64,000 nt of DNA from Methylocaldum marinum (GTDB lineage Bacteria > Pseudomonadota > Gammaproteobacteria > Methylococcales > Methylococcaceae), in the NCBI RefSeq assembly GCF_003584645.1, contig NZ_AP017928.1, positions 5,903,501 through 5,967,500 on the forward strand, in the 5' to 3' direction. Shown piece after piece: positions 27,830-52,066 of this stretch. Every line of letters begins with the position of its first letter. Positions within the stretch are counted from its first letter, which is position 1. The notes beneath the pieces were generated by a model. That model was not told the DNA's origin. It saw only the letters and a list, made by a program, of their open reading frames with translations, and did not search any database. A program made the translations under genes and the position numbers.

Positions 27830-28126
27830 CGCCGGACCCGGCCGCGATGTCGGGAAAGGATTCCCGACCTACAGGACGCCTCAGTTGTAGGTCGGCAATC
27901 CCTTGCCGACGCAGACGCCGGATCGGGCTGTGCCGTCGGGAAAGGATTCCCGACCTACAGGACGCCTCAGTCGTAGGTCGGCAATCCCTTGCCGACGCAG
28001 ACGCCGGATCGGGCTGTGCCGTCGGGAAAGGATTCCCGACCTACAGGGCGCCTCAGTCGTAGGTCGGCAATCCCTTGCCGACGCAGACGCCGGATCGGGC
28101 CGCGACGTCGGGAAAGGATTCCCGAC
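27830..28126. repeat. 86-bp tandem repeat, about 3.4 copies
   Basis: Copies start at 27849, 27935, 28021 and 28107 (period exactly 86). Each unit contains two palindromes, GTCGGGAAAGGATTCCCGAC and GTCGGCAATCCCTTGCCGAC. The array runs into the 3' end of the second cas2 and supplies its last codons. Confidence 0.9.
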
Positions 28127-28472
28127 CTTGCGAGCGGCTGTACCGAGGCATGAAAACCCTACCGCCGCAACCTAAGTAAATCCTGACCTTTTCCATCAGC
28201 AGCACGCCTTCCGGAAAGAGTTGGAGTCCCAGGCTGACCGTTTCCGGCCGGCTCGGCAGGGGATAGATCCTGACGTCGTCGGCGCGCCTGTCGATGCGGT
28301 GCATCAGTCCGGCAATGATGCGGGCGAGTTGCTTGGCCGTCGCCTGCGCCGCGAATACCGAATATTGCACCGGAATGCCGTGCTCCCGAAGAAAGCGATG
28401 AACCCGGCCCAGGCGCTTGGGATCGGCGATGTCGTAACAGACCAGATAGCTTTGCGCTCGTCCCTGCGCCAT
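28053..28472 (-). CDS. cas2: second Cas2-like protein with repeat-derived tail
   Basis: This 139-residue Cas2-fold protein has the ferredoxin-like start SYLVCYDIADPKRLGRVHRFL (metal Asp near 14) and VQYSVFAAQATAKQLARI. The core ends near residue 95 (LFPEGVLLM); the last 45 residues continue into the 86-bp tandem repeat, suggesting the original stop was lost. The ATG overlaps the stop of the Cas1-like gene by one base pattern ATGA. It differs strongly from the Cas2 at 30185, so it is not a recent copy. Cas2 normally bridges two Cas1 dimers during spacer integration. Confidence 0.85.
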   Translation of the reverse strand: MAQGRAQSYLVCYDIADPKRLGRVHRFLREHGIPVQYSVFAAQATAKQLARIIAGLMHRIDRRADDVRIYPLPSRPETVSLGLQLFPEGVLLMEKVRIYLGCGGRVFMPRYSRSQGRESFPDVAARSGVCVGKGLPTYD

Positions 28473-29239
28473 CACCCTATCTCCAGCAGCCAGCCGTGCA
28501 GCCGGCCGAGCAGTCCACGAATCAGACGCTCCGTGCGTTCTCGCCGGGCCTCGAAAAAGCCGACAATTTCAAGACGGTCGGGAATATCCAGCCGATCGTC
28601 ACGGAGCCGGTCTTCGAGCCAGGCCAGCCGCGCCAGCTGAAAATCCCAGAACACAATCGAACTCAGGCCGGTTACCGGATCGAGTTCGCCCATACGCTCC
28701 GATTCGGTGGTGATCCCGACATCGGCCAAATGCCGGGTCACCAGGGTCGTCAGCAGGCCGAAAACTTCACCGCCGATACGATCGTAAACCGTAAGCTGAC
28801 CCATGGCTCTCGCGCCTTCCCGGAACAGACGGCGCAACGCCTTCGCCGACGGCGGGCGGTCGAAAGCGAGGCCGGTGCGGCGGATCACGCTGCGCACCGC
28901 CATGCGCTCCATGGCCCCGATCCATTGCAGATACAAATCCCGCCAATCCGGACGCAGCAGAAAATCCAGAAAGCGCTGGCGAAGCTCGCTGCGTTCTCCG
29001 GGTTTTCCCGCCACTCTTGCCAAGACCGCACCTTCGTCGTCGATAAAACTGACCGTAATGCGGTTTTCCGCGCAGGCCAGCAGGGCATCGATCGTCCAGT
29101 CGATATGCACCGCCGAGACCACGTGCGAAATGCGCTGCAGCGGGAACCAGCGTTCCGCGGCGCCGGAACGGGTAACGCGCAGGGCAGGGCCGTCGAGCTT
29201 GACCGCCGTTCCCGAACCTTGCAGATAGAGGGGTTTCAC
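28472..29239 (-). CDS. Cas1 paralogue without the catalytic residues
   Basis: This 255-residue protein has a Cas1-like N-terminal beta domain (LYLQGSGTAVKLDGPALRV, PLQRISHVVSAVHIDWTIDALL, ITVSFIDDEGAVLARV) and a helical C-terminal domain. The stretch GELDPVTGLSSIVFWDF aligns with GLDPYVGFFHEPAYYRE of the active Cas1 next door, with Ser194 in place of the metal-binding His. I see no counterpart of the EGAAAAAYF glutamate motif. GTG 29239 overlaps the cas1 stop (GTGA). It is probably a structural partner in the adaptation complex or a degenerate Cas1; which is unknown. Confidence 0.8.
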   Translation of the reverse strand: MKPLYLQGSGTAVKLDGPALRVTRSGAAERWFPLQRISHVVSAVHIDWTIDALLACAENRITVSFIDDEGAVLARVAGKPGERSELRQRFLDFLLRPDWRDLYLQWIGAMERMAVRSVIRRTGLAFDRPPSAKALRRLFREGARAMGQLTVYDRIGGEVFGLLTTLVTRHLADVGITTESERMGELDPVTGLSSIVFWDFQLARLAWLEDRLRDDRLDIPDRLEIVGFFEARRERTERLIRGLLGRLHGWLLEIG

Positions 29240-30177
29240 GGCGCCTCCCCGGTCAGGCGGCGCGCGATCAACAGGCTGTAGCGCCGCAACAGCGCGCGCA
29301 GAGGGCGAGCGAAGCACTCGTAGCGGCCATAAAAAATTTCCCGGCCATTCTTTTTCAAAAGACACCGGTCGGCCTCGGTTGCAAACGAATCGCCGCGCAG
29401 CGCCCGATCGGCGAACAGGCGCCAGACCCAGCGGTCCGCTCTCGGCCGCAGCGGTTCGATCAAATCCGCCGCCAGTGACTCACGGTAATACGCCGGTTCG
29501 TGAAAGAAGCCGACATACGGATCCAGTCCCGCGGCATGACAGGCGTTGACGGCCTCGAAATGGAGCAGCGTGTAAGTGAGCGACAGGGCCGCGTTGACCG
29601 GGTCCTTCGGTGGCCGGCGATTGCGTCCGGTAAAGCCGAGACCGGCCGGAAAGAGCTGAGTATATGCCGCGAAATAAGCCGCCGCAGCCGCGCCTTCGAT
29701 GCCCTGCAGCCGTTCCAGCCGCTGCGAGCCCTCGATGCTTGCCAAGGCGCGTTCGAGGCGAGCGATCCCGTCCGTGAGCGGTTTGCGGCAATCGGGCCGG
29801 ACCGGGAGAGCCGACCGCAGCAGCCGCGCTTGAGCCTTCAATTTGAGCGCCACCAGCCGGCGCGCCCAAGGCAGGCGAAAGTCGTCATCATGGTGCCACC
29901 GGTATTGCGCGATGCGCCTGGCGGTATCGCCATGTCCGGTTCCATGCAGAATCGCCGCCGTACGCCCCTGCCGGCCGCTCAGGACCAGAAGGCCGATGCC
30001 TTCCTCGGCGAGCAGACCCAGCACCCCGGTGCTGAGCGTCGCCTGGCCGCGGACCACGACCCGCTCGATGACGTTCAGGGGAATCGTAGCGCTCCGGCTG
30101 CCGGCTTCATAAAGGCAGAGATGCCGGCCCTCGCGGCGCAATTCGATGTCTTTTCTATCCAGGTAAAGCGTGCCCAT
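29236..30177 (-). CDS. cas1: CRISPR adaptation endonuclease Cas1
   Basis: This 313-residue integrase inserts new spacers at the leader-proximal repeat. The metal-binding residues are intact: Glu161 (LQGIEGAAAAAYF), His226 (LDPYVGFFHEP) and Asp238/Glu241 (SLAADLIEPLRP). The N-terminal beta domain starts GTLYLDRKDIELRREG. ATG 30177 is preceded by GAGGATCGA. It starts 7 bp after cas2 and overlaps the Cas1 paralogue. Confidence 0.95.
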   Translation of the reverse strand: MGTLYLDRKDIELRREGRHLCLYEAGSRSATIPLNVIERVVVRGQATLSTGVLGLLAEEGIGLLVLSGRQGRTAAILHGTGHGDTARRIAQYRWHHDDDFRLPWARRLVALKLKAQARLLRSALPVRPDCRKPLTDGIARLERALASIEGSQRLERLQGIEGAAAAAYFAAYTQLFPAGLGFTGRNRRPPKDPVNAALSLTYTLLHFEAVNACHAAGLDPYVGFFHEPAYYRESLAADLIEPLRPRADRWVWRLFADRALRGDSFATEADRCLLKKNGREIFYGRYECFARPLRALLRRYSLLIARRLTGEAP

Positions 30178-30184
30178 TCGATCC

Positions 30185-30469
30185 TCAGCCGACGTAGAAG
30201 AATTCCGGGTCCGCCGGCGGGACCGCAATGCCGAGCACGCGAACCTTCATCCGGGGATCCAGCCGCAAGAGCAGAAAGCGGTCGGCTTCCTCGTCGATCA
30301 CGTCCTTGATCTCGTCGATCAATTGACGCTTCTCGGCCATGGTCAGGAAACACTCGAAAACCGATTTCTGCCCGCCGGTGGAATAGTTGCGCAGCACGAA
30401 AAGAGCCTTGCGCAGGCGGGCATCGTCCGAGATGTCGTAGGCGGCGATGTAAAGCGACCGTTTGCTCAT
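30185..30469 (-). CDS. cas2: CRISPR adaptation protein Cas2
   Basis: This 94-residue canonical Cas2 has a ferredoxin-like fold with SLYIAAYDISDDARLRKALFV (Asp near 10), the STGGQKSVFECFLT strand, and DEEADRFLLLRLD. ATG 30469 gives the normal family length; the longer open frame includes repeats. It is the first gene of the four-gene adaptation operon. No other cas gene is fused to it. Confidence 0.93.
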   Translation of the reverse strand: MSKRSLYIAAYDISDDARLRKALFVLRNYSTGGQKSVFECFLTMAEKRQLIDEIKDVIDEEADRFLLLRLDPRMKVRVLGIAVPPADPEFFYVG

Positions 30470-30549: not shown

Positions 30550-30700
30550 GCGGCGCCTCGTAGGATGCGGTGAGGTACGAGCCGCATCGTTCGAGTTGCT
30601 TCGACCATTGACAATAGTATCCATAGGTCGACCATCCTTTGCCGGCGACGATGGTTGATCGACGCTCCATGTCGGAAAAGGATTTCCGACCTACGAATTC
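30550..30700. repeat. dispersed palindromic repeats upstream of cas2
   Basis: GTAGGATGCGGTGAGGTACGAGCCGCATC (30559-30590) belongs to the GGTGCGGTGAGG palindrome family, and GTCGGAAAAGGATTTCCGACCTAC (30671-30694) to the GTCGGNAAGGATT palindrome family. Confidence 0.65.
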
Positions 30701-30713
30701 GTTGGAATTGAGT

Positions 30714-30836
30714 TGGCTAAACCCTTCCTTATCAGGTCTCGACTCAACGACTGGCGTCTAAAACAACTTTATATTCAAAAGTTTGTAATGTGTTTTGCAG
30801 AAAAATTGGCTTGCTGAAAAGTTAGCATCGGGCGAT
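30714..30836 (-). CRISPR. solo CRISPR leader with one degenerate repeat
   Basis: Bases 30714-30749 match the 36-nt repeat of the arrays with several substitutions (core CCCTTCCTTATCAGGTCTCGA). Bases 30750-30836 match the leader next to both large arrays (GTCTAAAACA, GCAGAAAAATTGGCTTGC, AAAAGTTAGC). No further repeat follows. Orientation (minus) is as in the arrays. It may be the stump of a third array, adjacent to the cas2-cas1 operon. Confidence 0.75.
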
Positions 30837-31988
30837 TCAACCAATCCATCGGCGCAATTTATCTTTCAAGGTTTTCAATTCCGTACCGGCGCAAGTTGTA
30901 ATCCGGTAGGCACTGGCGCGTTCCTGAATCGCGCGGGATAGCGGTTGATAACTGACCAGCATGGCTCTGGCCTGGAGACCGCCCAGGAGGTTGGAAAGCG
31001 CTTCGAGCCGGTAAATCGCGTCGGCGCCTGCGCCGCCGGTTTCGCGTTCGCCGTTGAAACGGCGGGTTTTGCACTCGATGACGTACAGCCGGTTTTCCGC
31101 GAGAAAAGCGACGTCCAACTCGTTGTGAATCGGCTCCCCGCCGTTTTGCCGCACGACTTCCAGCCCTCGGCCGATGTCCTGTATCGCCCTGAGTTCGCCC
31201 TTGAGGCTCTGGACCGCGCTGTACACGTACTGCTCCAGCCATCCGCCATTGGCAAAAAAGCGGGCGTCCGCGTCGGCGAAAAGAAGGCGTCCGTGCTTCT
31301 TCATGACCAGCTGCTCGGTTTCGAACCAGCCGAGCAGGGCCTTGAATTCTTCGCGCTCGAGTTGGCCCGGACCGAGTTCATCCGAGATCGGCGGCTCGCG
31401 CCCTTCCGCCGACATTGCCGCCCAATTCAGGGTTCCAAGGGCGCCTTGATATCGATCAATGTGCCGGACGAGCCCTTCGGCCAGCATCCGCAAGCGCTCG
31501 GGCATGCCGAAATGCGCGGGCCGTTCGCCCAGTTGGGCGCCATGGGCCTGGAAAAAAGCCTTGAGCTTGATGCGATTGGCGAGTTCCCGAGAATGCCGGT
31601 TGGCGGGATGCATCCAGATCAGACGGTCCTGTTCGGGATGTACGTAAAAGATGGGCAGATCGGCGGTGCGGAACACCTCATAGGCCGCGATAGCCATGGG
31701 CTTGGTTCCCCCGGTGACGTTCAGCGCGAGGTTCTCGTGTTCGTGTTCGGCCACGAAGGTCAGCAGCCGTTCGCGTAGGGCCTCGATGTCGTAGGCATTG
31801 TCGATCGCGACTTGGCTCACCGAAACGCCGGCCGGCAGCAGAACCGCCTTGAGCCAATCGGCCCGCTGCGCCATGTCGGGACTCACCAGCATGACGATAT
31901 GCCTGGGCTTGATGTCGGGATCGAGTACCGGAGTGATGTTCGGCGTCGGTTGTCCGGATACGAGAATCACATGAATATCTATAGCCAT
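30837..31988 (-). CDS. card1: Card1/Can2-type CARF nuclease (DUF1887)
   Basis: This 383-residue cyclic-oligoadenylate effector has an N-terminal CARF domain (HVILVSGQPTPNITP start; ligand loop VTGGTKPM at 91-98), a linker with helical domain, and a C-terminal PD-(D/E)xK nuclease with Glu290, Asp292 (NELDVAF), Glu305 and Lys307 (VIECKTRR). DUF1887 proteins of this architecture are activated by cA4 and nick or degrade DNA and/or RNA after type III target recognition. The gene ends directly beside the solo leader and follows cad1 by 278 bp of repeats. Confidence 0.9.
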   Translation of the reverse strand: MAIDIHVILVSGQPTPNITPVLDPDIKPRHIVMLVSPDMAQRADWLKAVLLPAGVSVSQVAIDNAYDIEALRERLLTFVAEHEHENLALNVTGGTKPMAIAAYEVFRTADLPIFYVHPEQDRLIWMHPANRHSRELANRIKLKAFFQAHGAQLGERPAHFGMPERLRMLAEGLVRHIDRYQGALGTLNWAAMSAEGREPPISDELGPGQLEREEFKALLGWFETEQLVMKKHGRLLFADADARFFANGGWLEQYVYSAVQSLKGELRAIQDIGRGLEVVRQNGGEPIHNELDVAFLAENRLYVIECKTRRFNGERETGGAGADAIYRLEALSNLLGGLQARAMLVSYQPLSRAIQERASAYRITTCAGTELKTLKDKLRRWIG

Positions 31989-32266: not shown

Positions 32267-34375
32267 TCAACCCCCAAACCGATCGAGCACCTGCCGGTAT
32301 ATCGAATCGTCCACCCGTTTCAGCAGGGTTTCCTTTTCCTGGCTCGGCAGGAATGCGTGGACGAACGCTTGCTTGATCATGGCCAAGGCGTCCCAGCAAC
32401 TGAGTTTGTCGTCGCCGACCATGCGCGCGGCGGTCAGGTATTCGCCGGTCAGCGTGGTGCGGCTGATGCCGGGGTTGTCCGTGCACAGCGTTAGCGGGAG
32501 TCCCGCCTGCCAGAGTTTCCAGAGTGGGTATTCGCGGCAGTCCGCCGTTTCCGGGTACGCCGGATCGCGGTAACCCACGACCTCCCTATTCGAACTGGGG
32601 CAAAGCTCCAGGCAGATGCTCCTGTCGCGGAAGCGCTGGGCGAGTCGGGCGTGATCGCCGATGGTCAGGCCGTGGCCGATCCGGTCGGCATGGAGATGGT
32701 AGGCCGCTTTCCAGATTTGTTCCGCGGTTTCGCCCTCGCCGGCATGGATGGTCAGCGGCAGGCAGATTTCGAAGGCACGGGCGAAGGCATTCGCGGCATC
32801 GGGAGGCAGCGCTTGTGTCTCGTCGCCCGCCATGTCGAGCCCGACCACGAAATCCGGCAGGCGCTCCTTCGCCCGAACCGCCAGGTCGATCACCTCGGGA
32901 AGCCTATCGTGTTGGCGCCGGTCGGCGATGAGTATGAACCGGAACAAGGGTCGCGGACCGTGCGGCAAGCTTGCCGCGGCGGCTTGCAAGGCGGCGGCCA
33001 GATGCTCCAGGAACAGCAGTCCGTCGCCGTATTTGTGCGGACTCCCGCGCAGCTCGACATAGGCCAAGCCCTCGGCCCGGGCCTGGCGCACGAGACAATC
33101 CGCGTACGGCTCGATCGCGGCGGTATGCGACAGGATCGCCGAGCCGGACAGTTCGCCCGGCCGCTCGTAGGCCGCGAAGCCGAGCGGATGACGCGATTTG
33201 AGCGCGACCCGCGGTTCGGTGGCGTCGAACAGGTTGCCGGTCAGCCGGTCGGGGTCGGCATGGACGAGCAGGGCGGCGGTCCAATGCGGCCTCGGGATGT
33301 CGGGTGCGGTCAATCGTTTCGGCCAGTCCGAGGGCCAGAGGGTTTGTTCCAGCAGCGGCGCGACATGGTCGAGCGCGCGCCCGCGCGCGGAAGCATTCAA
33401 GGCTTCCCAAACCGCGAGGCCGGCCGTGCGCTGGTCGTCGAGATCGAGACAGCCGCCGATGTGCCGGTGCAAGTCCGCCTTGGGCAGCGTTCGAAGCCAG
33501 TCGGCCAGATCCGGATTCAACGCCCGCGTCCGCAAGGTTTCGATGACGCGCGGGGGCAGCCGATAAACGCTGCGCCAGTTCTCGTGGTGTTCAGCCTCGC
33601 CGAGGGCTCTCAGATAATTGCCGAGCAACTGGCTCCCGGCCGCTTCGCGCCTTCGGATTTCATCGCAAAGCGAGGGGCCTTCCGTGTGTTCCCAGGGCAG
33701 CGGCGCGCCGGGTTCGGCCAGAGGTAAGGGAAAACCGCGACTAGAAACCGCGCCGCGGCCATCGAGTTCGACATCCAGCAGCTCGCTGCGCCGACCGACT
33801 CCCGCCACCAGCGGTACCACCGTGGGGACGATCTCGGCCGGCAGCTCGCGGGTGAAAAATTCGACGGTCGGTTCCCTAAGCAGTTTCGGCAACGGCTCTT
33901 GGCCGACCACATGAATCAGCGCGTCGCAGCCAAGCACGGAACCCGCCCATTGCAGATCGGCGCTCATGGTCTTGCGCCCTCCGGCCAGCGAAAATACGAC
34001 CTGGCCGTCTCCAGCGCGCTCATGCGCCAGAAGGCAAAGGCGCAACAGCACTTCGCGGAACCGCTCGCACTCGACCTGGCTGGCGAGCTGGTTGGTTCCT
34101 TCGGCCTGCCAGATCCGGAGCGTTGGCGGGTGTTCCAACCGAGCGTGCCAATCGAGCAATGCCGCGATACCTTCCTCGGGTTTTTCGCCCTGCGTGGTGC
34201 AGACCCAGATTTCATCCGGTGCTTCGAGCCGATGCTCGTCGCGTTGGCCGTCGAAGTCGGCGCGTTGAGGATGGCGGCGGTAGAGCGGCAAGCGGTCCGG
34301 GGCGAGAAAGCCGTAGACTTCGGGAATCACCGCCCACGACGCGCCCAGCGTGCACAGAAGAATGTTCGTTTTCAT
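32267..34375 (-). CDS. cad1: Cad1/CAAD: CARF-fused adenosine deaminase
   Basis: This 702-residue protein has an N-terminal CARF domain (ILLCTLGASWAVIPEVYGF; ligand loop SLAGGRKTMS around 129-138), a middle region to about 290, and a C-terminal adenosine deaminase domain with all metal and catalytic residues: His303 and His305 (DLHRHIGG), His544 and Glu547 (IHAGEGE), His568 (RIGHGL) and Asp633 (CTDNPG). Proteins of this class convert ATP to ITP when cA4 or cA6 binds, starving the infected cell of ATP. ATG 34375 overlaps the Nudix stop (ATGA), so the two are coupled. Confidence 0.92.
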   Translation of the reverse strand: MKTNILLCTLGASWAVIPEVYGFLAPDRLPLYRRHPQRADFDGQRDEHRLEAPDEIWVCTTQGEKPEEGIAALLDWHARLEHPPTLRIWQAEGTNQLASQVECERFREVLLRLCLLAHERAGDGQVVFSLAGGRKTMSADLQWAGSVLGCDALIHVVGQEPLPKLLREPTVEFFTRELPAEIVPTVVPLVAGVGRRSELLDVELDGRGAVSSRGFPLPLAEPGAPLPWEHTEGPSLCDEIRRREAAGSQLLGNYLRALGEAEHHENWRSVYRLPPRVIETLRTRALNPDLADWLRTLPKADLHRHIGGCLDLDDQRTAGLAVWEALNASARGRALDHVAPLLEQTLWPSDWPKRLTAPDIPRPHWTAALLVHADPDRLTGNLFDATEPRVALKSRHPLGFAAYERPGELSGSAILSHTAAIEPYADCLVRQARAEGLAYVELRGSPHKYGDGLLFLEHLAAALQAAAASLPHGPRPLFRFILIADRRQHDRLPEVIDLAVRAKERLPDFVVGLDMAGDETQALPPDAANAFARAFEICLPLTIHAGEGETAEQIWKAAYHLHADRIGHGLTIGDHARLAQRFRDRSICLELCPSSNREVVGYRDPAYPETADCREYPLWKLWQAGLPLTLCTDNPGISRTTLTGEYLTAARMVGDDKLSCWDALAMIKQAFVHAFLPSQEKETLLKRVDDSIYRQVLDRFGG

Positions 34376-34956
34376 GCGGAATTGCGAATCAGAAAATCGG
34401 CGGCGAGCCGGCTCCACAACTCGAAGCGCGGATCGTCCGCGATCCGCTCGGCCGGGACGAAGCCGATGCCTTTCAATCCCTGGCCTTCCACCGGTCGTGG
34501 CGGTTCATCCTCGGACCAGGACAAGACGTAAAGCAAACCAATATGCACCCGTCCGACCGCCGAGAGTCCTTCGTAAATCCAGGCGGCCGGTTCCGGGACG
34601 GCGATGTCCGACCGCAACTGAAGCTCCTCCCGCAACTCGCGGCGAAGTGCCCGTTCGGCCATGGCCCCGATCGATTCCGCCGCGTCCGCTTCATCGACAT
34701 GCCCGCCGACGCCGGCGCTGAGCCCGTCCCGCAGCCGGGCATCGCCGCCGTTTCGCGCATAGCACCAGATGTCACGCGAGCGACTTCGGAGCAGCGCGTA
34801 CGGAATGATTTGCAGAAAGCGCTCGTCGGTTTCGGCTTCGGAACGCGGCCGCCAGGCCCATTCGCCGGAGCAGGGCCGGTCGGACAGACGCCAGGCACCG
34901 GTTTCCGGCAAGGGTGGCCATGCGGCGCGGGGAACGACCAGGATGCGCTCGCTCAA
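34372..34956 (-). CDS. Nudix hydrolase partner of Cad1
   Basis: This 194-residue protein has the Nudix box in its middle (GGHVDEADAAESIGAMAERA then LRRELREELQL, catalytic Glu110/111). A TTG start at 34956 is inferred: it overlaps the csx16 stop (TTGA) and has GGAGGGG upstream; no suitable ATG exists. CRISPR-linked Nudix enzymes encoded next to Cad1/CAAD hydrolyse ITP to IMP, making ATP loss irreversible. The gene order csx16-nudix-cad1 with two overlaps strongly suggests the same job here. Confidence 0.85.
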   Translation of the reverse strand: MSERILVVPRAAWPPLPETGAWRLSDRPCSGEWAWRPRSEAETDERFLQIIPYALLRSRSRDIWCYARNGGDARLRDGLSAGVGGHVDEADAAESIGAMAERALRRELREELQLRSDIAVPEPAAWIYEGLSAVGRVHIGLLYVLSWSEDEPPRPVEGQGLKGIGFVPAERIADDPRFELWSRLAADFLIRNSA

Positions 34957-35258
34957 GGGGTTTCCCCTCCGGCCTCGACCACTCGATATTCGACGATGCG
35001 GGCGCCGAAACGCCGGAGATCCTCGGCCGACAGCTCGCGCCCCCGCCATTCCGGCGGTATTTCCAGGGCCAGATGAAAATAACGCGCGCCGAGCGCGCAC
35101 ACCTCCGCCGCCAAATGGACGGGCAGGGTGCCGATCACGCAATCCCCGGCTTTCACCTCCGCGATGTCCATGTGCGCCAATTGCCGGTCGACGGCAATTC
35201 CGCTCTCGCGCGCCCATTCGACGGCGCCGGGATGACGGGTTACGAAATATGTCGTCAT
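34953..35258 (-). CDS. csx16: Csx16 family ring nuclease
   Basis: This 101-residue protein starts MTTYFVTRHPGAVEWARESG and continues with GDCVIGTLPVHLAAEVCALGARYFHL, the Csx16 signature. Csx16 proteins occur only in type III CRISPR loci and act as ring nucleases that degrade cyclic oligoadenylates, switching effectors off. ATG 35258 is chosen as the conserved start. It is first in the csx16-nudix-cad1 operon, so the off-switch is made with the effector. Confidence 0.88.
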   Translation of the reverse strand: MTTYFVTRHPGAVEWARESGIAVDRQLAHMDIAEVKAGDCVIGTLPVHLAAEVCALGARYFHLALEIPPEWRGRELSAEDLRRFGARIVEYRVVEAGGETP

Positions 35259-35331
35259 AGGTAATACATGCTCAGTGGGAATATCCAATGAGTTCGGTCT
35301 TATTCATTGTTTCATTGATTTACTAATGGTC

Positions 35332-36292: not shown

Positions 36293-37020
36293 ATGGATAC
36301 CCCTTCTTTATCAGGTCTCGATTCAAACCATCTTCTCAGACCGGGAGCATGAGCGTGCTGTGTCTTAATCCCTTCTTTATCAGGTCTCGATTCAAACGCC
36401 CTGTTGTGCTGGCAGCACGGCAAAGCATCCGTCTTAATCCCTTCTTTATCAGGTCTCGATTCAAACCGAAAGCTAGCGCAGACAGCTAGAACGAATAGTG
36501 TCTTAATCCCTTCTTTATCAGGTCTCGATTCAAACCCATCCGGAAGTCTAAGAGCCCAATGGCCAAGGAGTCTTAATCCCTTCTTTATCAGGTCTCGATT
36601 CAAACGCAATGTGGGAAGGAACATAACCGGAAACGGTTTGTCTTAATCCCTTCTTTATCAGGTCTCGATTCAAACGGTATGGCGAACGTGAATAGCATTG
36701 CAGGGCTCCGTCTTAATCCCTTCTTTATCAGGTCTCGATTCAAACCAACGGTGCGATGTACCTGGCCCCCGCGATCAGTCTTAATCCCTTCTTTATCAGG
36801 TCTCGATTCAAACCCGGAAGGGCGATGAATACGCCCTCCAGACTTCGGTCTTAATCCCTTCTTTATCAGGTCTCGATTCAAACGTGGCGGTATTGGGGTA
36901 TGTTGACGCATGGTTGGTCTTAATCCCTTCTTTATCAGGTCTCGATTCAAACAAGAAAAATATTGGTTTTCGAACGGTTTCCATGTCTTAATCCCTTCTT
37001 TATCAGGTCTCGATTCAAAC
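36293..37020 (-). CRISPR. CRISPR array 1: 11 repeats, 10 spacers
   Basis: The 36-nt repeats read GTCTTAATCCCTTC...GATTCAAAC on the plus strand. The lowest-coordinate repeat (36293-36328) is degenerate at its first bases, and an AT-rich leader shared with array 2 lies beyond the last repeat at 37020. Both point to transcription on the minus strand, giving crRNA 5' handles ATTAAGAC. Spacers are about 33-38 nt. The repeat is identical to array 2. Confidence 0.97.
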
Positions 37021-37112
37021 GGCTTGTGTCTAAAACACCTCCATATTCAATAGTTTACAAAGGGGGTTGCAGAAAAATCGGCTTGCCGAAAAGTTAGCGT
37101 CGAGCGACGGCG
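37021..37112 (-). promoter_or_regulatory. leader of CRISPR array 1
   Basis: AT-rich sequence conserved with 53457-53545 and 30750-30832 (GTGTCTAAAACACCTCCATA, TTACAAAGGGGGTTG, GAAAAGTTAGCG). It contains the array promoter and the integration anchor by inference. Confidence 0.8.
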
Positions 37113-37660: not shown

Positions 37661-39331
37661 TCATGGCGCCATGAGACTGCGCAAGAGTTTTTTGCGCTTG
37701 CCGTCGTCCTTGCGGATGCCGAGCCAGTCGAATATCTCGACGGCTACGGGGTGCAAGGCCTGGCGGTCGGATTCGTCCCAATTCGCCGTCTCCTGGATCA
37801 GATTTCGTAAGCGGTCGTACAACTGGCTGCCGGGACCTTTGCCCTTATTGCCGGCAGTCATTTCGCCACGCAGGGTTTCGGTCCTCTGCTGGTTTTCCGA
37901 CATGGCCGCGAGACGGGCGGCTTGGGCTTCCGCTTTTGCGGTCTCTTCGGCGGCTTGCCGCCGCGCGTCGGCTTCGGCTCGGGAGCGTTCGGCCCGCAGC
38001 CGCTCGGCCTCGGATTTCCGCTTTTGTTCCTGTTCCAGTCGATCGTAGGCCGCTTGCGCGGTGCGCCGGAGGAAGGCGTGCGTTTCACGCAGGCCGGCAT
38101 CGTCGAGTTCAACCAGTATCCAGCCGAAGGGGAGCATGGCGCCCGTCTGGTCTTTGGCATCGGCGGCAAGCCATAGCGTGGTTGCGTGGTCAAGATATTT
38201 GGGCGGTTGACCTTGCTTCTGCATGATTTCGATACAGCGCACGCTGTCTAACGTGGTGTGCTCAGCCCCCGAGTGCTTGCCAATACGGAGGAGAAATATT
38301 TGTCCGCGATTTCGCGCTTCCTTTAGTTCGCCGGACAGTAGCTTTCTCAAAGAGTTGATCCAATCAGTATCGGCGTACTGCAGGTCTTGCAGCGCGTCGA
38401 GTTCGTTGTGCAAACGTGGGAAATAGTAGTCGTTACAGACTTCGGCTAGGTCCGAGACGCTCTCGAAGGGAAGCTTGTTTTGCCAGCGACTCAATTCCCT
38501 GCTCGACAGAAGGGTCAATTCCGTTTGAAAGCTGCGACTGCGATGGGCGCCCAGGCACTCAAGCAAGGTGTATAAATCCCGCTCTTCGGCCATTGACTTT
38601 TTCTTTGAGCGTCCTTTCTTTCGATTGACCGCATATCTGATTTCCAGTCCATCCAATCCGTCCGGATGGTGATATGGCGCATCTCCGATCTTGAGCAGTC
38701 GTAAAGGGTCTTCGGTGACATGACTGTATTTCAGTAACTTACCTGGAACATCCCGGCCTGTCAGCCGTAGATTGCGCTGAACGTTCCGTTTCGCCGCACG
38801 CTGATCCGTTGCGTTTTCATAGCTATGGACGGCGTCGTTCACTGCCTTCTTTAGGTGATCGGCGTACTGCCGGTCCTTTTTCAGACATGTGTCCAGAATC
38901 GCGGTCCGTATTGCCCCTTTGAGGCTACTGCCTGGAATGTAAGGTCGTTGTGTGTGGAGGTTGAAGGTATTGCGCTGGATTGCAAGTTTGTTCGTATCTT
39001 TTTTTCCTTCAATGCTGTCTCGATAGAATCCCTCCAAGGCGGGCGAAACCGGCATGGCATGTTGCGCATAAGTCTTGAGTAACGCGCGTTTGTCGTGGAT
39101 GAACTTTTGCATCCGACGGATGGCGGCCTGACCTTCGCGAATTTCCGCCAATTTAGCAAGCTCATGTAGCTCCGCTGGTTTCAATGCTTCCAACAACTGC
39201 AACTCCCCGAAATAGTGCAGGTAACCCTCGTCGATGACGTAATTGGTGGGGTAATAATCTTCGCCGCTGCCGATGTGCACCGGGGTGAGCGTCGAGATGT
39301 AAACGGTTTGGGTGTTTAAGAAAGAACTCAC
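37661..39331 (-). CDS. csm5: type III-A effector subunit Csm5, enlarged
   Basis: This 556-residue RAMP protein has the glycine-rich and PGSSLKGAIRTAIL motifs of Csm5, which caps the crRNA 3' end of the Csm complex. Most Csm5 proteins are 350-400 residues; this one has an added charged coiled coil (EQEQKRKSEAERLRAERSRA, about 450-500) and a C-terminal helical domain (ESDRQALHPVAVEIFDWLG). GTG 39331 overlaps the csm4 stop and follows GGAGGAAGCACA, so it is chosen over the longer frame. It is the last csm gene. Confidence 0.92.
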   Translation of the reverse strand: MSSFLNTQTVYISTLTPVHIGSGEDYYPTNYVIDEGYLHYFGELQLLEALKPAELHELAKLAEIREGQAAIRRMQKFIHDKRALLKTYAQHAMPVSPALEGFYRDSIEGKKDTNKLAIQRNTFNLHTQRPYIPGSSLKGAIRTAILDTCLKKDRQYADHLKKAVNDAVHSYENATDQRAAKRNVQRNLRLTGRDVPGKLLKYSHVTEDPLRLLKIGDAPYHHPDGLDGLEIRYAVNRKKGRSKKKSMAEERDLYTLLECLGAHRSRSFQTELTLLSSRELSRWQNKLPFESVSDLAEVCNDYYFPRLHNELDALQDLQYADTDWINSLRKLLSGELKEARNRGQIFLLRIGKHSGAEHTTLDSVRCIEIMQKQGQPPKYLDHATTLWLAADAKDQTGAMLPFGWILVELDDAGLRETHAFLRRTAQAAYDRLEQEQKRKSEAERLRAERSRAEADARRQAAEETAKAEAQAARLAAMSENQQRTETLRGEMTAGNKGKGPGSQLYDRLRNLIQETANWDESDRQALHPVAVEIFDWLGIRKDDGKRKKLLRSLMAP

Positions 39332-40299
39332 TGTGCTTCCTCCCATTGCACGCCGAAGACCGGGGCGTAGCCTTGATGGACCGCGGTGCCGATCGCTTTG
39401 GAAACGCCGCCGATGCCCCGTCCCGTGATACGGGCGGAGGGCTCGAAGATCGCGGGTGTGAGGATGGCGAAACTGTCGGCCGTCAACACCGGGTTCTTGA
39501 ACGGCTTCCCGCCGAGCACGGCGCGGTCGCCGTGGCGGCCGAAGCGGGTGAAGGTTTCGTAGTAACAACGCTCGGCTTTCCATTGCTGCCCTTGGGGAGC
39601 GCTGGGCGCCAGGGTCAGCCAGGCGTTCGGGGCGGCAGGACGTGGCGGGTCATAAGGCGCCGCTTTCAGAACCTCGAGCTTGCCGAGTCCGCTGGAGGCG
39701 TCCTTGCCGTAGCCCTGCTGGCCTACGGCCATGAGAGCTTCACTCAGGTTCTCAAGCGTGAAGTCGAGGCGGTTTTCATCCAGCGCCGCGTAAATCGACA
39801 AACGCACCTCGGGGTGATACCAGGTCAGCGCCCGATCGTACGGCGCGAACCCGGTTTCACCGGCCCCGGTGGTGCCGGTCAGTCGGTTCAGGCTGTTGTG
39901 AGTGCGGTTTTCGTGGCGGAGAAACGGCCCCTTCAGTTGCAGCCGGTCCATCATGTCGGCTTCGCTCAGTGCTTCCTGCCCCCAGGCGCCGACCGGCTTC
40001 GTCAACACGTCCTCCGGCAGCCAGCGCCGGGCCTTGATCTGCTTGCGTTCCCTGGGGTTTTCCGTATCGAGACCGAGCAGATGCGGAGGGGCGGCGGGGC
40101 GAGCTAGGAAACCCTCCGGCACGGGGTCCGAAAGCACCAGGAACGGCCGGAAATCGGTGTAGCCTTGCAGGAGTTCGATCAGCCTGGCTTCGCCCCAAAG
40201 ATTACGGATCGCCCAGCAGCACTGGCCGAACAGGGTGTCGCCCTTGAGCGGCGTGGCGAAGGCGGTTCCGGGATGTATCAGAATGCGGTAAAGCTTCAC
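39328..40299 (-). CDS. csm4: type III-A effector subunit Csm4
   Basis: This 323-residue RAMP protein (Cas5-like) binds the crRNA 5' handle and Cas10. It starts MKLYRILIHPGTAFATPLKGDTLFG, with the glycine-rich GQQGYGKDASSGLGKLEV and a C-terminal GRGIGGVSKAIGTAVHQGYAP. It is coupled to csm5 by a 4-base overlap and follows the antitoxin-like gene by one base. Confidence 0.94.
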   Translation of the reverse strand: MKLYRILIHPGTAFATPLKGDTLFGQCCWAIRNLWGEARLIELLQGYTDFRPFLVLSDPVPEGFLARPAAPPHLLGLDTENPRERKQIKARRWLPEDVLTKPVGAWGQEALSEADMMDRLQLKGPFLRHENRTHNSLNRLTGTTGAGETGFAPYDRALTWYHPEVRLSIYAALDENRLDFTLENLSEALMAVGQQGYGKDASSGLGKLEVLKAAPYDPPRPAAPNAWLTLAPSAPQGQQWKAERCYYETFTRFGRHGDRAVLGGKPFKNPVLTADSFAILTPAIFEPSARITGRGIGGVSKAIGTAVHQGYAPVFGVQWEEAQ

Positions 40300-40526: not shown

Positions 40527-41243
40527 TCAAAACAGCGTTTCGGGTAAATCGAATGCCTGCCCGTTGAGCGTTAGACCGTCGAATTCAATCTTGCCATACC
40601 CTCGCGAACCGGACCCGCCGATGCCGTCGAGCGTCAGCATTTTGAGGCCGATTTTCACCAGGTCCAGCAGGTCGGTATCGTTTTCGTCCAGCACCTTCAG
40701 GTTAAGCCTGAAGGTGAATTTCGCTCCCGCCGGAACACGCTCCGTTTGGCGGGGATTATCGGCCACGCCGGTGATGCGGTTGATGCTGTTTTCGCTCTTG
40801 GCTTCGGTGTAGAGATAGTTATTGTCACGAACGAATTGCCGATGTTCCTCGGTCAGATTGCAGTCCCAGAACGCCATGCGGGTCGGGCCGTATTTTTCCG
40901 CCGCGTCTCCGGCGTCGCCGGAAATGCCGAAAAGACGGATGATGGCTTCGGCATCTCGGCGCTGACGCTCGTTCATATCCTTCAAATGGTCCACGGAAAC
41001 CGGCTTGCCCGGATTGCCTTTCTTGTCCTTGCAAAGCGCGACAATACCCGCGCGCCATTCCAGCAGGCTGCGCATCTTGCCCTTGAGGCTGGAGCCGGGA
41101 ATGTAGGGTTCCTGGGTATAGGGATGCTTGATGACAGGGTTGTCCATCCCGCCGATGTGCATTTCTTCGTTGCCGGCGCCAATGCGTAGGCCGGTCAGGA
41201 GTTTGATTTCGCCGCTGATCTGGTTGATGGCTTTGAGTTGCAT
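40527..41243 (-). CDS. csm3: type III-A backbone ribonuclease Csm3
   Basis: This 238-residue RAMP (Cas7 family) forms the filament and cuts target RNA every six bases. The catalytic Asp34 is present (IGGMDNPVIKHPYT), as are PGSSLKGKMRSLLEW and the C-terminal GIGGSGSRGYGKIEF glycine-rich loop. Length is normal for the family. Confidence 0.96.
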   Translation of the reverse strand: MQLKAINQISGEIKLLTGLRIGAGNEEMHIGGMDNPVIKHPYTQEPYIPGSSLKGKMRSLLEWRAGIVALCKDKKGNPGKPVSVDHLKDMNERQRRDAEAIIRLFGISGDAGDAAEKYGPTRMAFWDCNLTEEHRQFVRDNNYLYTEAKSENSINRITGVADNPRQTERVPAGAKFTFRLNLKVLDENDTDLLDLVKIGLKMLTLDGIGGSGSRGYGKIEFDGLTLNGQAFDLPETLF

Positions 41244-41259: not shown

Positions 41260-41352
41260 TATTTCGGACCGTATAGCTTGTAGAAACTTGCGATCAATGG
41301 GATTGTCGGGCGGTCGCGTCTTGGTATTTCGGACCGTATAGCTTGTAGAAAC
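41260..41352. repeat. 28-bp direct repeat at the end of csm2
   Basis: TATTTCGGACCGTATAGCTT and following bases occur at 41260-41287 and 41325-41352. The second copy encodes the csm2 end (FYKLYGPK); the first lies past the stop, encoding the same residues in an open frame. This is a partial 3' duplication of csm2, or the sign that the stop at 41294 is a frameshifted end. Confidence 0.8.
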
Positions 41353-41818
41353 CCATGAAGGCTTCCATGAACAATTTGAAGTTCTTGAATGCTTCGGGCT
41401 TGTCCGGTTCGAGCTGACGCAAGCCATGCCGCAGTAACGTCAGAAAATTCTGGTCTATCAGTTCGCGGGACTCCGCATAGGCCGCCTTGGCGTTGAGCAT
41501 CTTGATGAGCGGCAGGTATTGGGTGCCGTAAATCCTGATTCGCTCGTCCTCCTTCAGCTGGCGTATCCGCTGGTCCCACATGACAATCTCGTCGTAGAAG
41601 CGGCGGAGCTGGGTGGATTTGTTCTTGTCTCTCTTGCTGGCTTTTGCCGATTTCGCGATTTCCTCGGCCGCGCGTTCGGCGGTCGCGTCGAACAAGTCTC
41701 CGTTCGGGTTCGCGACGTCGATCTGCTTCAGGATTTCTTCCAGTTCCCTTGACGGCCCCCTATCCTGATTTTGTCTGCCGCCGCTCTGCTGCGGCCTGCT
41801 TTTGTCGTAATAGCTCAT
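41294..41818 (-). CDS. csm2: type III-A small subunit Csm2
   Basis: This 174-residue helical protein has the Csm2 core (STQLRRFYDEIVMWDQRIRQL, LIKMLNAKAAYAESRELID, GLRQLEPDKPEAFKNFKLFMEAFMGFYK). It has a long polar N-terminal extension (about 1-35). It forms the inner filament of the Csm complex. The last ten residues follow a duplicated 28-bp stretch, so the natural end could be slightly different. Confidence 0.92.
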   Translation of the reverse strand: MSYYDKSRPQQSGGRQNQDRGPSRELEEILKQIDVANPNGDLFDATAERAAEEIAKSAKASKRDKNKSTQLRRFYDEIVMWDQRIRQLKEDERIRIYGTQYLPLIKMLNAKAAYAESRELIDQNFLTLLRHGLRQLEPDKPEAFKNFKLFMEAFMGFYKLYGPKYQDATARQSH

Positions 41819-41830: not shown

Positions 41831-44494
41831 TTAGTCACGTTGTTGATACAGATACAAATGCAGGGCGATCTTGTAAGCCGCCCCGTATTGACGTATGCCG
41901 GATTCGATTTCGGCGATAATTCGGTTGTGCATGGCGTTTTGCTCTTCGGCGCTCTGTTTCCTTTCGCTTTTCACCATGCGCCATGTCCGGTAATACAGAA
42001 AAGAGCGCCACCGGGCCTTGGCCGGGTCCGTCGCCATGCCTTCGGCCAGATCCGCCAGCCCGAGCAAGCCGTACAGATAGGCGGTCGAAAGCCGGTATTC
42101 CCCCGCCAACCCGGCCAGCCGTTCATAACATCCCCATAGGGCGTCCATCTCGTCCCAGCCCACGGTTTGTCCGAAGCAGGTGAGGGCGTTTTTGCCCGGT
42201 ATTTCTTCGTCGCCGCGGCGGTGCTTCTTGGCGTCTTCCAATGCATCCTCGCTGCCTTCGGCAAGGTAATGGATAGGCACCGCCGGCTTGGTCACGGCGA
42301 GGCCGGCCGAGAAATGGAGTTCCGGGTTTTCCGCGACGTAGCGCCCGAATTGCCGACGCATCCGATGCGCCAGCTCCACCTGGCTTTTCCAAGGGCCGAT
42401 CAGGAAAAAATCGTCGCCTCCGGCGAACACGGTGTAGCTGTTCCGGTATTCCGTACGGCACAGCCACGGCAGGTAGACGGCGAAGAAATTGTTCACCTGC
42501 CGAGATAGTGCCGCCATCTTGGCGAAGGTCGGCTGCTTCAGTCCTCGCTGGAAAATGGCGCCGAGGTCGTCGATGTCGCCTTTTAGGGTATGCAGCGCCG
42601 TCACGCCGCGAAATTCCCGGCGTTCGTCCAGGTCTTCGCAGGCGATGTGGTGGAGGGTTTTCAGATCGCCGGCGGCAGGATCGTCCTCGTCTTTCAGGTT
42701 GTTCTGAATTCGGTCGTAACGCGGATCTTTCCATTCCAGGTCTTCGAATACCGGCACGTAGCCGCGAATGTTGCGCCGGGCATAGCCGTTCCAAAGCGGC
42801 CGGGCGGGGTTCGGATCGGGCAGCGAAAAATCGAACAGTCGCCGGATATTGCCGTTCTTGACTTCCGCGCCGAAGCGCCCGGATGCCTCCTCGTTGCCGG
42901 TGAAGTGCACGTAATAGTCGAAGATCGGCAGGTCCAGCGTGCGGTTGTCCTGCAGCTTCGCGATGCTGAGGATCAGCCTTTCGCACTTCACCAGCAATTC
43001 GCCGGCTTTGATCTGGTCCGCCGCGAGCCGGCTGAGCCGAACGCCGTTCCTCTCGACTTCGGCCGGGGCGCGGTCGTTTACGGCGCAAGCACCCCACTCG
43101 TTATTGAAACCGTCAAGATAGTTTTCGAACACGGGGTTCAGATCGCCCCCGCCGCACAAATCGAAATGCCTGTATTTCGCCCGCTCCAGATTCCGATGCA
43201 GCTTCTTCATGAGCGCGGCAAAGCGGCTTTCGCCTTCCTTCCCGCCGAGAAAGTCGTTGCAGCAGGCCGGTTCGAAAGCTAGGCCGAGTCCGGCTTCTCC
43301 GTAGCTGTGTTTCAAGAACCACGTGTCGAAAGTTTTCTGGACTTCGGCGAGACGGGTTCTGGTTTCATCGGTATTGGGCGCGACGATGAGGAACTTTCCG
43401 GCAGCGTTGGTTATCTGGCTGGTGGAGGGCAATTGCAACTCGTCCAGCACCTTGAGCGCCGCGCATTCGGTAATCAGCGAAACATAGAACGAACGGCCGC
43501 GCAGCAACTTGGCGGCGTTCTTCTTGGTCTCGCCGCCGCCGGCGAAGATGAATTTCTGGATGCCGAAGAAATCGCCCTGTATCAGCAGAAATTTCGGTTC
43601 GTCCCAATCGTCCCGGCCGCGCAGCCGCGCCAGGCGTTCGGCGGGGTCGTGGCCTTGATCGGCGTGATAGCGCCATAGCGCCACGGCCAGGGCTGCCGTG
43701 GTCTTGGAATGATCGTACAGCGGCACTTCCGGCTTGACGTTGAAAGCCGTGGCTGAGGGAATGGCATGGGTGTAGGTCTGCCAGAGGGTATCGAAATGAT
43801 CCAGCCACAAGGGCAAACTGTGGCGGTGAGATTCGGGTATGGCTCCAAGGCTCTTCATGAAGCCGTCCCAGAGACCGGCATATTCCCGTTGCGCCGCGGC
43901 ATCGTTATCCGGTTCGCTAGTCTCGCGCTTTTCCGGAAACAGGCTTTCGGGACTGAGGGGGCGCAACGGATAGCGATAGGCGAATCGGTCCGGGGAGTCC
44001 GATTCCAGCCGGATTTGCTCGAACAATGTCAGCAGCCGCGCCTGGTAATGGTTCTTGCCGGTGGAGGTCTTTTCCTCGGCTCGGTTGTAGTTCTCGAATT
44101 GCTCCCGCTCGAAGCCGGAGGCTACTCGGTCGGCGGTGGCGATGATCCATTGCAGGAAGGTTTGCGGCCGGTGATGCTTTGCGGCGGCGTTGACCAGCGA
44201 GTCGTCCACGTCGCGGGATTTCCAGTCGGCGAACGGCGCCATGGCCCATCCCTTGAGCGGCGGCAAGCCTTCGTTCTCCAGCCAGTCCACCGCGAGGGCG
44301 GTATAGGCCGCATGTTTGTGGCTGTACCAGAACCCTCCGCCCGGCCTTTCGTGGCGCGGGCAATAGAGTTGCAGGTGGGTTTCCAGCACGGTGTCATCGA
44401 CATGCGGCGAAGCACGCTCCGCGAATTTCCCCAAGTCGTGCAGAAACGCTGCCAGGGCCACGCGGGCCGAGGCTTCCAGTCGTTCGGAATTCAT
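41831..44494 (-). CDS. cas10: Cas10/Csm1, type III-A signature subunit
   Basis: This 887-residue multidomain enzyme has: an N-terminal HD nuclease with His19-Asp20 (FLHDLGKF) and a further conserved site KHHRPQT; a first palm domain; zinc and helical parts; a second palm with the cyclase motif GGDD at 692-695 (FAGGDDFFLIG); and a C-terminal helical domain. Intact HD and GGDD imply both ssDNA cleavage and synthesis of cyclic oligoadenylates. ATG 44494 is preceded by AGAGGAGACC; a GTG at 44518 is rejected. It starts 17 bp after the CARF gene stop. Confidence 0.97.
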   Translation of the reverse strand: MNSERLEASARVALAAFLHDLGKFAERASPHVDDTVLETHLQLYCPRHERPGGGFWYSHKHAAYTALAVDWLENEGLPPLKGWAMAPFADWKSRDVDDSLVNAAAKHHRPQTFLQWIIATADRVASGFEREQFENYNRAEEKTSTGKNHYQARLLTLFEQIRLESDSPDRFAYRYPLRPLSPESLFPEKRETSEPDNDAAAQREYAGLWDGFMKSLGAIPESHRHSLPLWLDHFDTLWQTYTHAIPSATAFNVKPEVPLYDHSKTTAALAVALWRYHADQGHDPAERLARLRGRDDWDEPKFLLIQGDFFGIQKFIFAGGGETKKNAAKLLRGRSFYVSLITECAALKVLDELQLPSTSQITNAAGKFLIVAPNTDETRTRLAEVQKTFDTWFLKHSYGEAGLGLAFEPACCNDFLGGKEGESRFAALMKKLHRNLERAKYRHFDLCGGGDLNPVFENYLDGFNNEWGACAVNDRAPAEVERNGVRLSRLAADQIKAGELLVKCERLILSIAKLQDNRTLDLPIFDYYVHFTGNEEASGRFGAEVKNGNIRRLFDFSLPDPNPARPLWNGYARRNIRGYVPVFEDLEWKDPRYDRIQNNLKDEDDPAAGDLKTLHHIACEDLDERREFRGVTALHTLKGDIDDLGAIFQRGLKQPTFAKMAALSRQVNNFFAVYLPWLCRTEYRNSYTVFAGGDDFFLIGPWKSQVELAHRMRRQFGRYVAENPELHFSAGLAVTKPAVPIHYLAEGSEDALEDAKKHRRGDEEIPGKNALTCFGQTVGWDEMDALWGCYERLAGLAGEYRLSTAYLYGLLGLADLAEGMATDPAKARWRSFLYYRTWRMVKSERKQSAEEQNAMHNRIIAEIESGIRQYGAAYKIALHLYLYQQRD

Positions 44495-44510
44495 CCGGGT
44501 CTCCTCTGAA

Positions 44511-45629
44511 TCAATCACAAAATCCGATCTGATGGGCCGACAGGCTCAGGCCGTACGCCGTTCTGGGGCGTCGACCGAAACCTTTGATCTGATAAGCGGC
44601 GGCCCCCGCTCCCAAAGCATCCCGCAGCATCCGGTTCACCCGGCTCTTGCGCCGCTCGAAATAATTCTTGTCCATGCCGTAGCGGAGCCCATCCACCACG
44701 CGGTCGTCGTCGCCGAGTTCGCCGATGATGGCGCGGTATTCCCGGCGATAGTCTTCGGCGTAGGCCCGGTTCGGATAGTCCGGCAGCGAGGGCGACGGAC
44801 ACGGAATCGGTTCGAGGCTTTGTTGCGCTCGCCGGGCGAGCCAGGCGTAGAAGGCCAGTTCGGCGGGCGGAAAGGGAACGGCGATGCCGCCGGCGGTTAC
44901 GGTACGCGCGGAGAGATCGATGTCGAGGCGCGCGGGGCCCAGGGCCGTTTGGGCGGCGCGCACGGTCGCCGAGAAACTGCTGCGGCCTTTGAGCAGCGCC
45001 TCGGGCAGGCCGTGGCGGAGGCGCACGAAGGGGATGTCGGCCAGGGTCACGGCGGCGTTCCGGGTGTCGAGCGGCTTCTGATCGGGCGGCGAGGCGTAGA
45101 TCACGTGGGAATACGGCGTGGGGTAGAAAAAGCCGGGGTGCGACTCGAACGGCGCGTCGACCAGGACGTGGGAGAGACGGTCCTGCGGGCGTCCGTACAG
45201 CGAGAGGGCATAGCCGGCGAAGAACCCGAGGGTTTTCCGGCCGCCGGCGAGCGACACGTGCAACTGGGTGTCGTCGTCCTCGGTGAGGCGGCGCACCCAT
45301 TCGGTAATGCCGTCCGCGGCCGCGGTGTTGTCCGCGCCGCTGCGGATATCGGTCAGGGAATGTCCGCCGCCGTCGGTCAGGGTGTGCAGGCTGTCCGCGC
45401 CGAACCGGATCGGCGGCAGCCGGTAGTCCTTGAGCAATCGGTGAAACCAGCCCGGCTCATCGCTGAACAGCATCAGGCGCGCCCGCTCCACGCCTTCCGC
45501 GGTGGAGAGGACGTGGATCTCGGTCGGCAGCGACTCGGGGTCGTCCTGCCACAGGGCAAACAGGGTTTCGGTCACGACTTGAGGCGTCAAGCCGGTGATG
45601 ACGAGCAAGATTCTGCGGGAGTGGGTCAT
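44511..45629 (-). CDS. NE0113-family CARF protein (TIGR02584), probable cOA sensor or effector
   Basis: This 372-residue protein has an N-terminal CARF domain of the NE0113 family (RRILLVITGLTPQVVTETLFAL; ligand loop VSLAGGRKTLGFF around 126-137). The C-terminal half (about 220-372) is helical and ends KNYFERRKSRVNRMLRDALG and RTAYGLSLSAHQI. I see no canonical HEPN R-x4-6-H motif, so RNase activity is not predicted from sequence. It immediately precedes cas10. Family members are sometimes labelled Csm6-like or ring nucleases; which applies here is open. Confidence 0.85.
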   Translation of the reverse strand: MTHSRRILLVITGLTPQVVTETLFALWQDDPESLPTEIHVLSTAEGVERARLMLFSDEPGWFHRLLKDYRLPPIRFGADSLHTLTDGGGHSLTDIRSGADNTAAADGITEWVRRLTEDDDTQLHVSLAGGRKTLGFFAGYALSLYGRPQDRLSHVLVDAPFESHPGFFYPTPYSHVIYASPPDQKPLDTRNAAVTLADIPFVRLRHGLPEALLKGRSSFSATVRAAQTALGPARLDIDLSARTVTAGGIAVPFPPAELAFYAWLARRAQQSLEPIPCPSPSLPDYPNRAYAEDYRREYRAIIGELGDDDRVVDGLRYGMDKNYFERRKSRVNRMLRDALGAGAAAYQIKGFGRRPRTAYGLSLSAHQIGFCD

Positions 45630-52058: not shown

Positions 52059-52066
52059 AAAATGTT
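52059..52066. repeat. left target-site duplication AAAATGTT
   Basis: The same 8 bases occur at 53112-53119, directly outside the other end of the insertion sequence. Joining the flanks restores a 34-nt spacer, normal for this array. Confidence 0.9.

Follow-up and report, generated by a model that had tools for sequence, protein, structure and literature searches.

Within a 64,000-nucleotide stretch of the Methylocaldum marinum genome (contig NZ_AP017928.1, positions 5,903,501 to 5,967,500; hereafter the window), we analyzed a four-gene adaptation operon of a clustered regularly interspaced short palindromic repeats (CRISPR) system at 28053-30469. The operon is transcribed on the minus strand in the order cas2b, cas1, cas1L, cas2a, is tightly packed, and adjoins a predicted type III-A system. 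The gene set is confirmed: all four open reading frames (ORFs) of an initial annotation made from the sequence were recovered, with their coordinates, strand, overlaps and 7-bp gap (Table 1). The gap lies between cas2b and cas1; the cas1-cas1L overlap is 4 bp and the cas1L-cas2a overlap 1 or 4 bases. Both Cas2 proteins and Cas1 score above Pfam cut-offs, as does Cas1L through its N-terminal part only, its match to PF01867 being restricted to residues 46-162 of an ORF of 297 amino acids (aa). The cas2a tail of the window differs from that of its relatives because the 3' end of the gene runs into 86-bp tandem repeats (D3/D5, 27819-28128) that replace the normal tail; Cas2a of the congeners is 104 aa long. 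The tandem repeats contain the palindrome GTCGGGAAAGGATTCCCGAC.

The third gene encodes a paralogue of Cas1 from which the entire metal site is missing. Conservation was assessed in alignments of operon Cas1 longer than 250 aa (n = 53) and of Cas1L longer than 200 aa (n = 57). E161, H226 (the metal His by its motif), D238 and E241 are invariant in 53/53 Cas1 sequences, and no equivalent of this E/H/D/E set is present in the 57 Cas1L sequences. The best-kept positions of Cas1L look structural (e.g. Y5, L20, P33, R36, C56, G70, W106, W198, L251), and D16, D98 and D199 are Asp or Glu in at least 95% of sequences; given these acidic residues, some other chemistry by Cas1L is not strictly excluded. 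In profile-profile alignment (hhalign), the N-terminal beta domain of Cas1L matches Cas1 with a probability of 97.5% and an E-value of 5.7e-12. Judged by these comparisons, Cas1L is a Cas1 homologue and is not a Cas1 endonuclease. The initial annotation had called it a catalytically dead Cas1 paralogue that keeps the beta domain, which stands, and had explained its inactivity by Ser194 in an LDPVTG element paired with LDPYVG of Cas1 at H226, which does not: LDPVTG is not conserved among Cas1L relatives, and profile-profile alignment sets the Cas1 LDP against a different region of Cas1L. Absence of the whole metal site is a better statement than a single change from His to Ser.

Structure prediction for the 255-residue protein, proposed in that annotation as a check, agrees with this description for the N-terminal domain, which is Cas1 by profile and by local fold match; the C-terminal half was not confidently modelled. 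When the AlphaFold2 model was searched with Foldseek, the best 50 of 536 matches were all Cas1, Cas1-Cas2-complex or casposase entries (including 3god, a Cas1 entry). These 50 matches are local, covering the beta domain and not the whole model, with TM-scores of 0.21-0.39 and root-mean-square deviations above 11. The prediction used a 4-row alignment; a mixed alignment of Cas1 and Cas1L was discarded for folding, its C-terminal half being plainly misaligned.

To describe how widely the module occurs, we examined 61 Cas1L loci from 59 genomes (L and G numbers denote our loci and genomes). The four-gene adaptation module is kept by methane-oxidising bacteria and a few relatives. Within the order Methylococcales, Cas1L matches at E < 1e-30 were found in 52 of 311 genomes, and one further, broken cas1L copy lies in G538. 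Close relatives that carry names are Methylocaldum sp. 14B and two metagenome-assembled genomes, one filed under Methyloversatilis universalis and one from the Methylococcaceae. In a sample of the phylum, 26/398 genomes match the Cas1L profile at E <= 0.001, a profile that also picks up ordinary Cas1. Among 14 places fetched from 13 of these 26 genomes, covering the stronger matches, six held Cas1L (L068-L073) and eight ordinary Cas1. The six Cas1L loci all belong to one other order, where they occupy 6/78 genomes (G112, G132, G144, G176, G216, G224); the matches in G326, G335, G148, G232 and G314 are ordinary Cas1 with Cas2 next to it, except that in G314 the contig ends instead. Cas1L was found in no plasmids, and in viral contigs 18 pattern matches yielded none that was confirmed; phages gave a single weak partial match (E 0.07).

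The order cas2b-cas1-cas1L-cas2a is complete in 51/61 Cas1L loci, which answers the question, raised with the initial annotation, of whether other genomes keep the set intact. Because the operon is kept in dozens of genomes, a chance arrangement is excluded. The remaining ten comprise six cut by contig ends (L024, L073, L112, L116, L147, L167, with L147 and L167 from one genome), one permuted locus with cas1 before cas2b (L128), and three degenerate loci with genes missing (L141, L144, L146). One locus counted among the 51, L022, has a cas1 frame broken near residue 277. Neighbouring genes in the 14 nearer loci mostly overlap or lie a few bases apart, and no fusion between any two of the four proteins was found in 68 loci. 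Two kinds of insertion were labelled by eye from sequence: a cas6-resembling gene between cas2b and cas1 (L031, 7629-8655), and an ORF of ~265 aa resembling a histidine kinase between cas1 and cas1L (L120, L121, L143). Ratios of nonsynonymous to synonymous substitution rates (dN/dS, NG86) show that cas1L is under purifying selection: the six comparisons that involve the window and three congeners give 0.125-0.199, and five in other loci give 0.068-0.204. The same annotation had named neutral evolution of the paralogue as grounds for doubt, and the 11 values together (0.07-0.20) are not neutral. For cas1 the ratios are 0.111-0.120 (three congener comparisons, L022 excluded) and 0.049-0.149 (five others); for cas2a they are 0.142-0.359 among congeners, the top value being that of the window versus L022.

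The presence of Cas1L and Cas2b is nearly all-or-none, and the two behave as one package. When the order was searched with a Cas1 profile, 48 hits in 47 genomes reached 380 bits or more, counting the broken frame in G003, and cas1L lies in the same operon in 48/48. The next 13 hits (335-371 bits) are without exception plain two-gene cas1-cas2 sets in which neither cas1L nor cas2b was found. We refer to the operons with cas1L as group A and to the related two-gene sets as group B. Below these hits lie core-clade Cas1 fragments in G005, G476 and G484, beside contig ends or within degraded Cas1L loci, a further fragment in G476 (L163) that stops at the contig end, and the truncated cas1 of G485 (L162). 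In a Cas2 tree built from a short alignment, Cas2a and Cas2b each form one clade (support 99/96 and 100/98, respectively), and the Cas2 of group B joins Cas2a with support of 89/82, which is not strong. The Cas1 tree nests group B within group A (99/97), which would imply that cas1L and cas2b were lost together, although a tree with group A as one clade cannot be rejected (approximately unbiased test, p 0.18). Whether group B arose by loss or is ancestral, Cas1L and Cas2b change in step.

Cas2b is also recognizable by itself. Its length is near-fixed (94 aa in 44/55 rows), and its C-terminus reads aromatic-Tyr-x-Gly in 51/55 rows and differs in 4, with FYVG or YYVG in 40/55 and FYVG in the window; none of the 13 group B Cas2 proteins has this ending. 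Median isoelectric points (pI) are basic for both Cas2 proteins of the four-gene module (9.5 and 9.3), while that of the lone group B Cas2 is 6.7. Five Cas1 positions are kept in group A and switched in group B (R8, K276, R279, E287, I304), and seven others, uncommon in A, are fixed in B, five of these within residues 1-79; both sets were picked post hoc. Across 48 complete sets, Cas1-Cas1L has the highest partial correlation of log distances (0.56), though distances are cleaner for longer proteins. With 85 columns sampled per protein, Cas1-Cas1L (0.39) and Cas2a-Cas2b (0.38) rank at the top of the six pairs, the others reaching 0.25-0.35 with overlapping intervals. This rate co-variation lends weak support to a proposed pairing of Cas1 with Cas1L and of Cas2a with Cas2b.

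The surroundings of the operon in the window form a type III-A system, Cas10/Csm1 and Csm2-Csm5 all having profile matches over cut-off (Table 1). An ORF at 34372-35217, between Csx16 and the CARF-deaminase, has a sub-threshold NUDIX match (0.0031), is 68-83% identical in three congeners, and is possibly a type III accessory gene. A duplicated segment of ~1.49 kb at 46750-49656 carries two paralogous ORFs of ~265 aa. The copy of the array leader directly upstream of cas2b, which is followed by one decayed repeat, may have been retained as a promoter for the adaptation operon; Methylocaldum sp. 14B (L021) still has repeat arrays ~0.9-1.1 kb upstream of cas2b. Of the 39 group A loci spanning 10 kb or more, 22 have a relative of the Csm, Card1, Cad1 or Csx16 of the window within the fetched stretch, and 6 have Csm genes proper, so that the effector type is not established for all group A loci.

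Table 1. Features of the window, with the adaptation operon listed first (E-values follow profile names)
Feature	Coordinates	Strand	Remarks
cas2b	30185..30469	-	First operon gene; second Cas2 paralogue; ATG 30469; 94 aa; PF09827 3.2e-13
cas1	29236..30177	-	ATG 30177; 313 aa; active-site-complete integrase (E161, H226, D238, E241); PF01867 2.8e-77
cas1L	28472..29239	-	GTG 29239; 255 aa; Cas1 paralogue without metal site; PF01867 2.4e-10
cas2a	28053..28472	-	Last operon gene; Cas2; ATG 28472 or GTG 28475; PF09827 2.9e-16
Leader copy and one degenerate lone repeat	30698..30835	-	Directly upstream of cas2b; families D2, D8; 81% to array leader
Card1-type CARF-PDDEXK nuclease	30837..31988	-	PF09002 1.1e-32; PF23400 6.5e-18
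CARF-adenosine deaminase (Cad1-type)	32267..34417	-	PDLC01908 CARF_ADA 1.2e-245
Csx16	34953..35288	-	PF09652 6.8e-39
CRISPR array	36293..37020	-	11 repeats of 36 nt; spacers 32-34 nt
Array leader, proximal part	37018..37107	-	Family D8
Csm5-type RAMP	37661..39583	-	TIGR01899 8.7e-19; N-terminal part of listed ORF overlaps csm4
Csm4	39328..40299	-	TIGR01903 2e-24
Csm3	40527..41243	-	TIGR02582 1.3e-65
Csm2	41294..41818	-	TIGR01870 9.1e-13
Cas10/Csm1	41831..44518	-	TIGR02578 1.5e-207
NE0113-type CRISPR ring nuclease (Csm6 in NCBIfam)	44511..45629	-	TIGR02584 1.7e-66
Cas6-like	45704..46795	-	TIGR01877 0.0019, below curated cut-off
Further array(s), repeat as in 36293-37020	50891..53461	- (inferred from repeat)	22 copies; 1.1-kb interruption

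Arrays near the module contain up to 85 repeats, and their spacers measure ~33-35 nt. From the group A and B loci passing a length and variety filter, 1220 spacers were collected, of which 1208 are distinct and none is common to different loci; even L029, L133 and L134, which are closely related by Cas1 and carry 18, 46 and 62 spacers, share none. This points to quick spacer turnover, yet further Cas1 genes encoded in the same genomes may also play a part. The array of 85 repeats, the one array searched, had no match in phage records.

In Cas1-Cas2 complexes, one Cas1 of each pair does the chemistry and the other is structural. PMC9048733 describes the canonical complex as four copies of one Cas1 with a Cas2 dimer, and there, as in PMC8102632, copies of one Cas1 fill both the catalytic and the structural roles. 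We favor the reading that the four genes encode a heteromeric CRISPR integrase whose non-catalytic Cas1 position is filled by Cas1L, and regard it as reasonably probable from the sequence evidence. The structural position would then have its own gene, cas1L, and a dead paralogue retaining the beta domain is what would be expected if the non-catalytic Cas1 position became a separate gene. Cas1L would pair with active Cas1, and a Cas2a-Cas2b heterodimer would bridge two Cas1-Cas1L dimers. Cas2b might act as an adaptor that makes place for Cas1L, perhaps via its conserved C-terminal tail, and the benefit could be a built-in difference between subunits or ends. We infer this pairing and stoichiometry, the role of the tail and the benefit of split subunits. 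By analogy, Cas1L may dock on the Cas2b tail, since PMC8102632 describes a C-terminal segment of Cas2 contacting the non-catalytic Cas1b in the RT-Cas1 complex (RT, reverse transcriptase). The integrase of two Cas1 and two Cas2 types suggested in the initial annotation is supported in part, through the co-occurrence of the second Cas2 with Cas1L. A more speculative extension, which we think rather doubtful, is that the two ends of the integrase differ in protein composition: the Cas2a-Cas2b pair would break two-fold symmetry and the dead subunits would dictate the Cas1 that acts first, and the complex itself might thereby set the direction of spacer insertion without Cas4, a trimmer nuclease or a protospacer adjacent motif.

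Several observations weigh against a heteromeric integrase. Tight coupling is not universal, as a dozen loci have a cas1-cas1L gap of 68-333 bp or an intervening gene. G539 (L141) retains an intact cas1L, cas2b and part of cas2a with no cas1 in the genome at E 1e-20; G485 (L162, 6082-6889) conversely lacks cas1L while holding cas2b and a truncated cas1 that contains a stop codon, and is degenerate. Spacers are ~34 nt in group A versus ~33 nt in group B, a difference of at most 1 nt that bears no clear mark of Cas1L. Further, the C-terminal half of Cas1L bears only a faint resemblance to Cas1 (hhalign E 0.007-0.008, probability ~5%), and the AlphaFold2 model is of low confidence (mean predicted local distance difference test score, pLDDT, 57.8), confident for about residues 1-70 only and below 60 beyond them. 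The last two points could be read as a beta domain, by itself confidently Cas1, fused to an unrelated helical domain with its own function, for which D199, acidic in 95% of Cas1L, might speak. We consider this fusion unlikely: the weak C-terminal match runs collinearly through 102 columns and outscores five column shuffles (E 0.24-0.85), and since an authentic Cas1 modelled at equal alignment depth gave a mean pLDDT of 54.5, low pLDDT is no argument against a Cas1 fold in Cas1L.

Cas1L might instead act outside the integrase core, as an accessory or regulator that, for example, guides Cas1-Cas2 to the leader, selects or protects prespacers, or damps integration, its beta domain serving as a docking surface only. 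The far-diverged C-terminal domain, the near-neutral median pI of Cas1L (6.9, versus 9.8 for Cas1), and nine filtered group B arrays that look ordinary, implying that the module can work without Cas1L, are all compatible with such a role; however, the presence of Cas1L tracks that of another core subunit, the second Cas2 (Cas2b), and a beta domain kept family-wide is a better fit to a core position, so that an accessory role seems somewhat improbable. The operon order, in which each Cas1 adjoins one Cas2, would also suit two separate self-assembling complexes, cas2b-cas1 and cas1L-cas2a, the latter a non-integrating decoy or DNA-binding complex. Group B Cas1 nevertheless goes with a Cas2 that groups with Cas2a (the weakly supported node above) and not with Cas2b, which makes Cas2a probably not the private partner of Cas1L, and the Cas2a-Cas2b correlation is among the two highest; two complexes are therefore distinctly unlikely in our view. 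That Cas1L is a duplicate undergoing decay towards loss is suggested by the degenerate loci L141, L144 and L146 and is very improbable: against it stand the low dN/dS of cas1L, 57 frames above 200 aa that diverge down to ~20-25% identity, and hosts in two orders. For the Cas1L family overall, low dN/dS, long frames and two host orders refute decay.

The prior record of Cas1L is a profile in PADLOC. PDLC01185, 'Cas1, diverged variant, second in the loci', is the best PADLOC match of the window Cas1L (7e-12), matches 10/10 diverse Cas1L members (best 1.2e-19) and shares the position after cas1; the paralogue was therefore noticed earlier by the makers of the profile. Among the matches listed, most cover the N-terminal half, and ordinary Cas1 profiles also match all ten. 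At 1e-10 the profile finds 4/398 phylum genomes, all already found, and 0/14 control genomes. What differs is that the record is a one-line profile description, silent on the second Cas2, the missing catalytic site and function. In open-licence full texts we found no paper on the function, dead site or partner Cas2 of a diverged second Cas1, some searches being swamped by cas1-prefixed words (Cas13). If the heteromeric integrase is true, roles held by copies of one protein would be split into two genes, each separately mutable, which would show the features that belong to the structural subunit. The module could then test how type III systems orient new spacers, and group B, with its two-gene set and closely related Cas1, provides a ready natural control.

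Among known systems, the canonical Cas1-Cas2 integrase shares the active Cas1, the Cas2 families and the adjacent arrays, whereas here there are two Cas1 and two Cas2 genes, with one Cas1 lacking an active site. Cas4-Cas1-Cas2 represents a known route to asymmetric prespacer handling, via Cas4; to our knowledge, type III systems are mostly without Cas4. RT-Cas1-Cas2 adaptation modules occur in a type III context, and no RT gene was noticed at the window module, where no search aimed at RT was made. In PMC8102632, such modules combine catalytic and non-catalytic Cas1 roles in one complex, a combination proposed here as well; one polypeptide plays both roles there. For the Cas2-DEDDh trimmer-integrase, PMC10284694 attributes asymmetry to an exonuclease, whereas in the module described here it would possibly arise from the subunits themselves.

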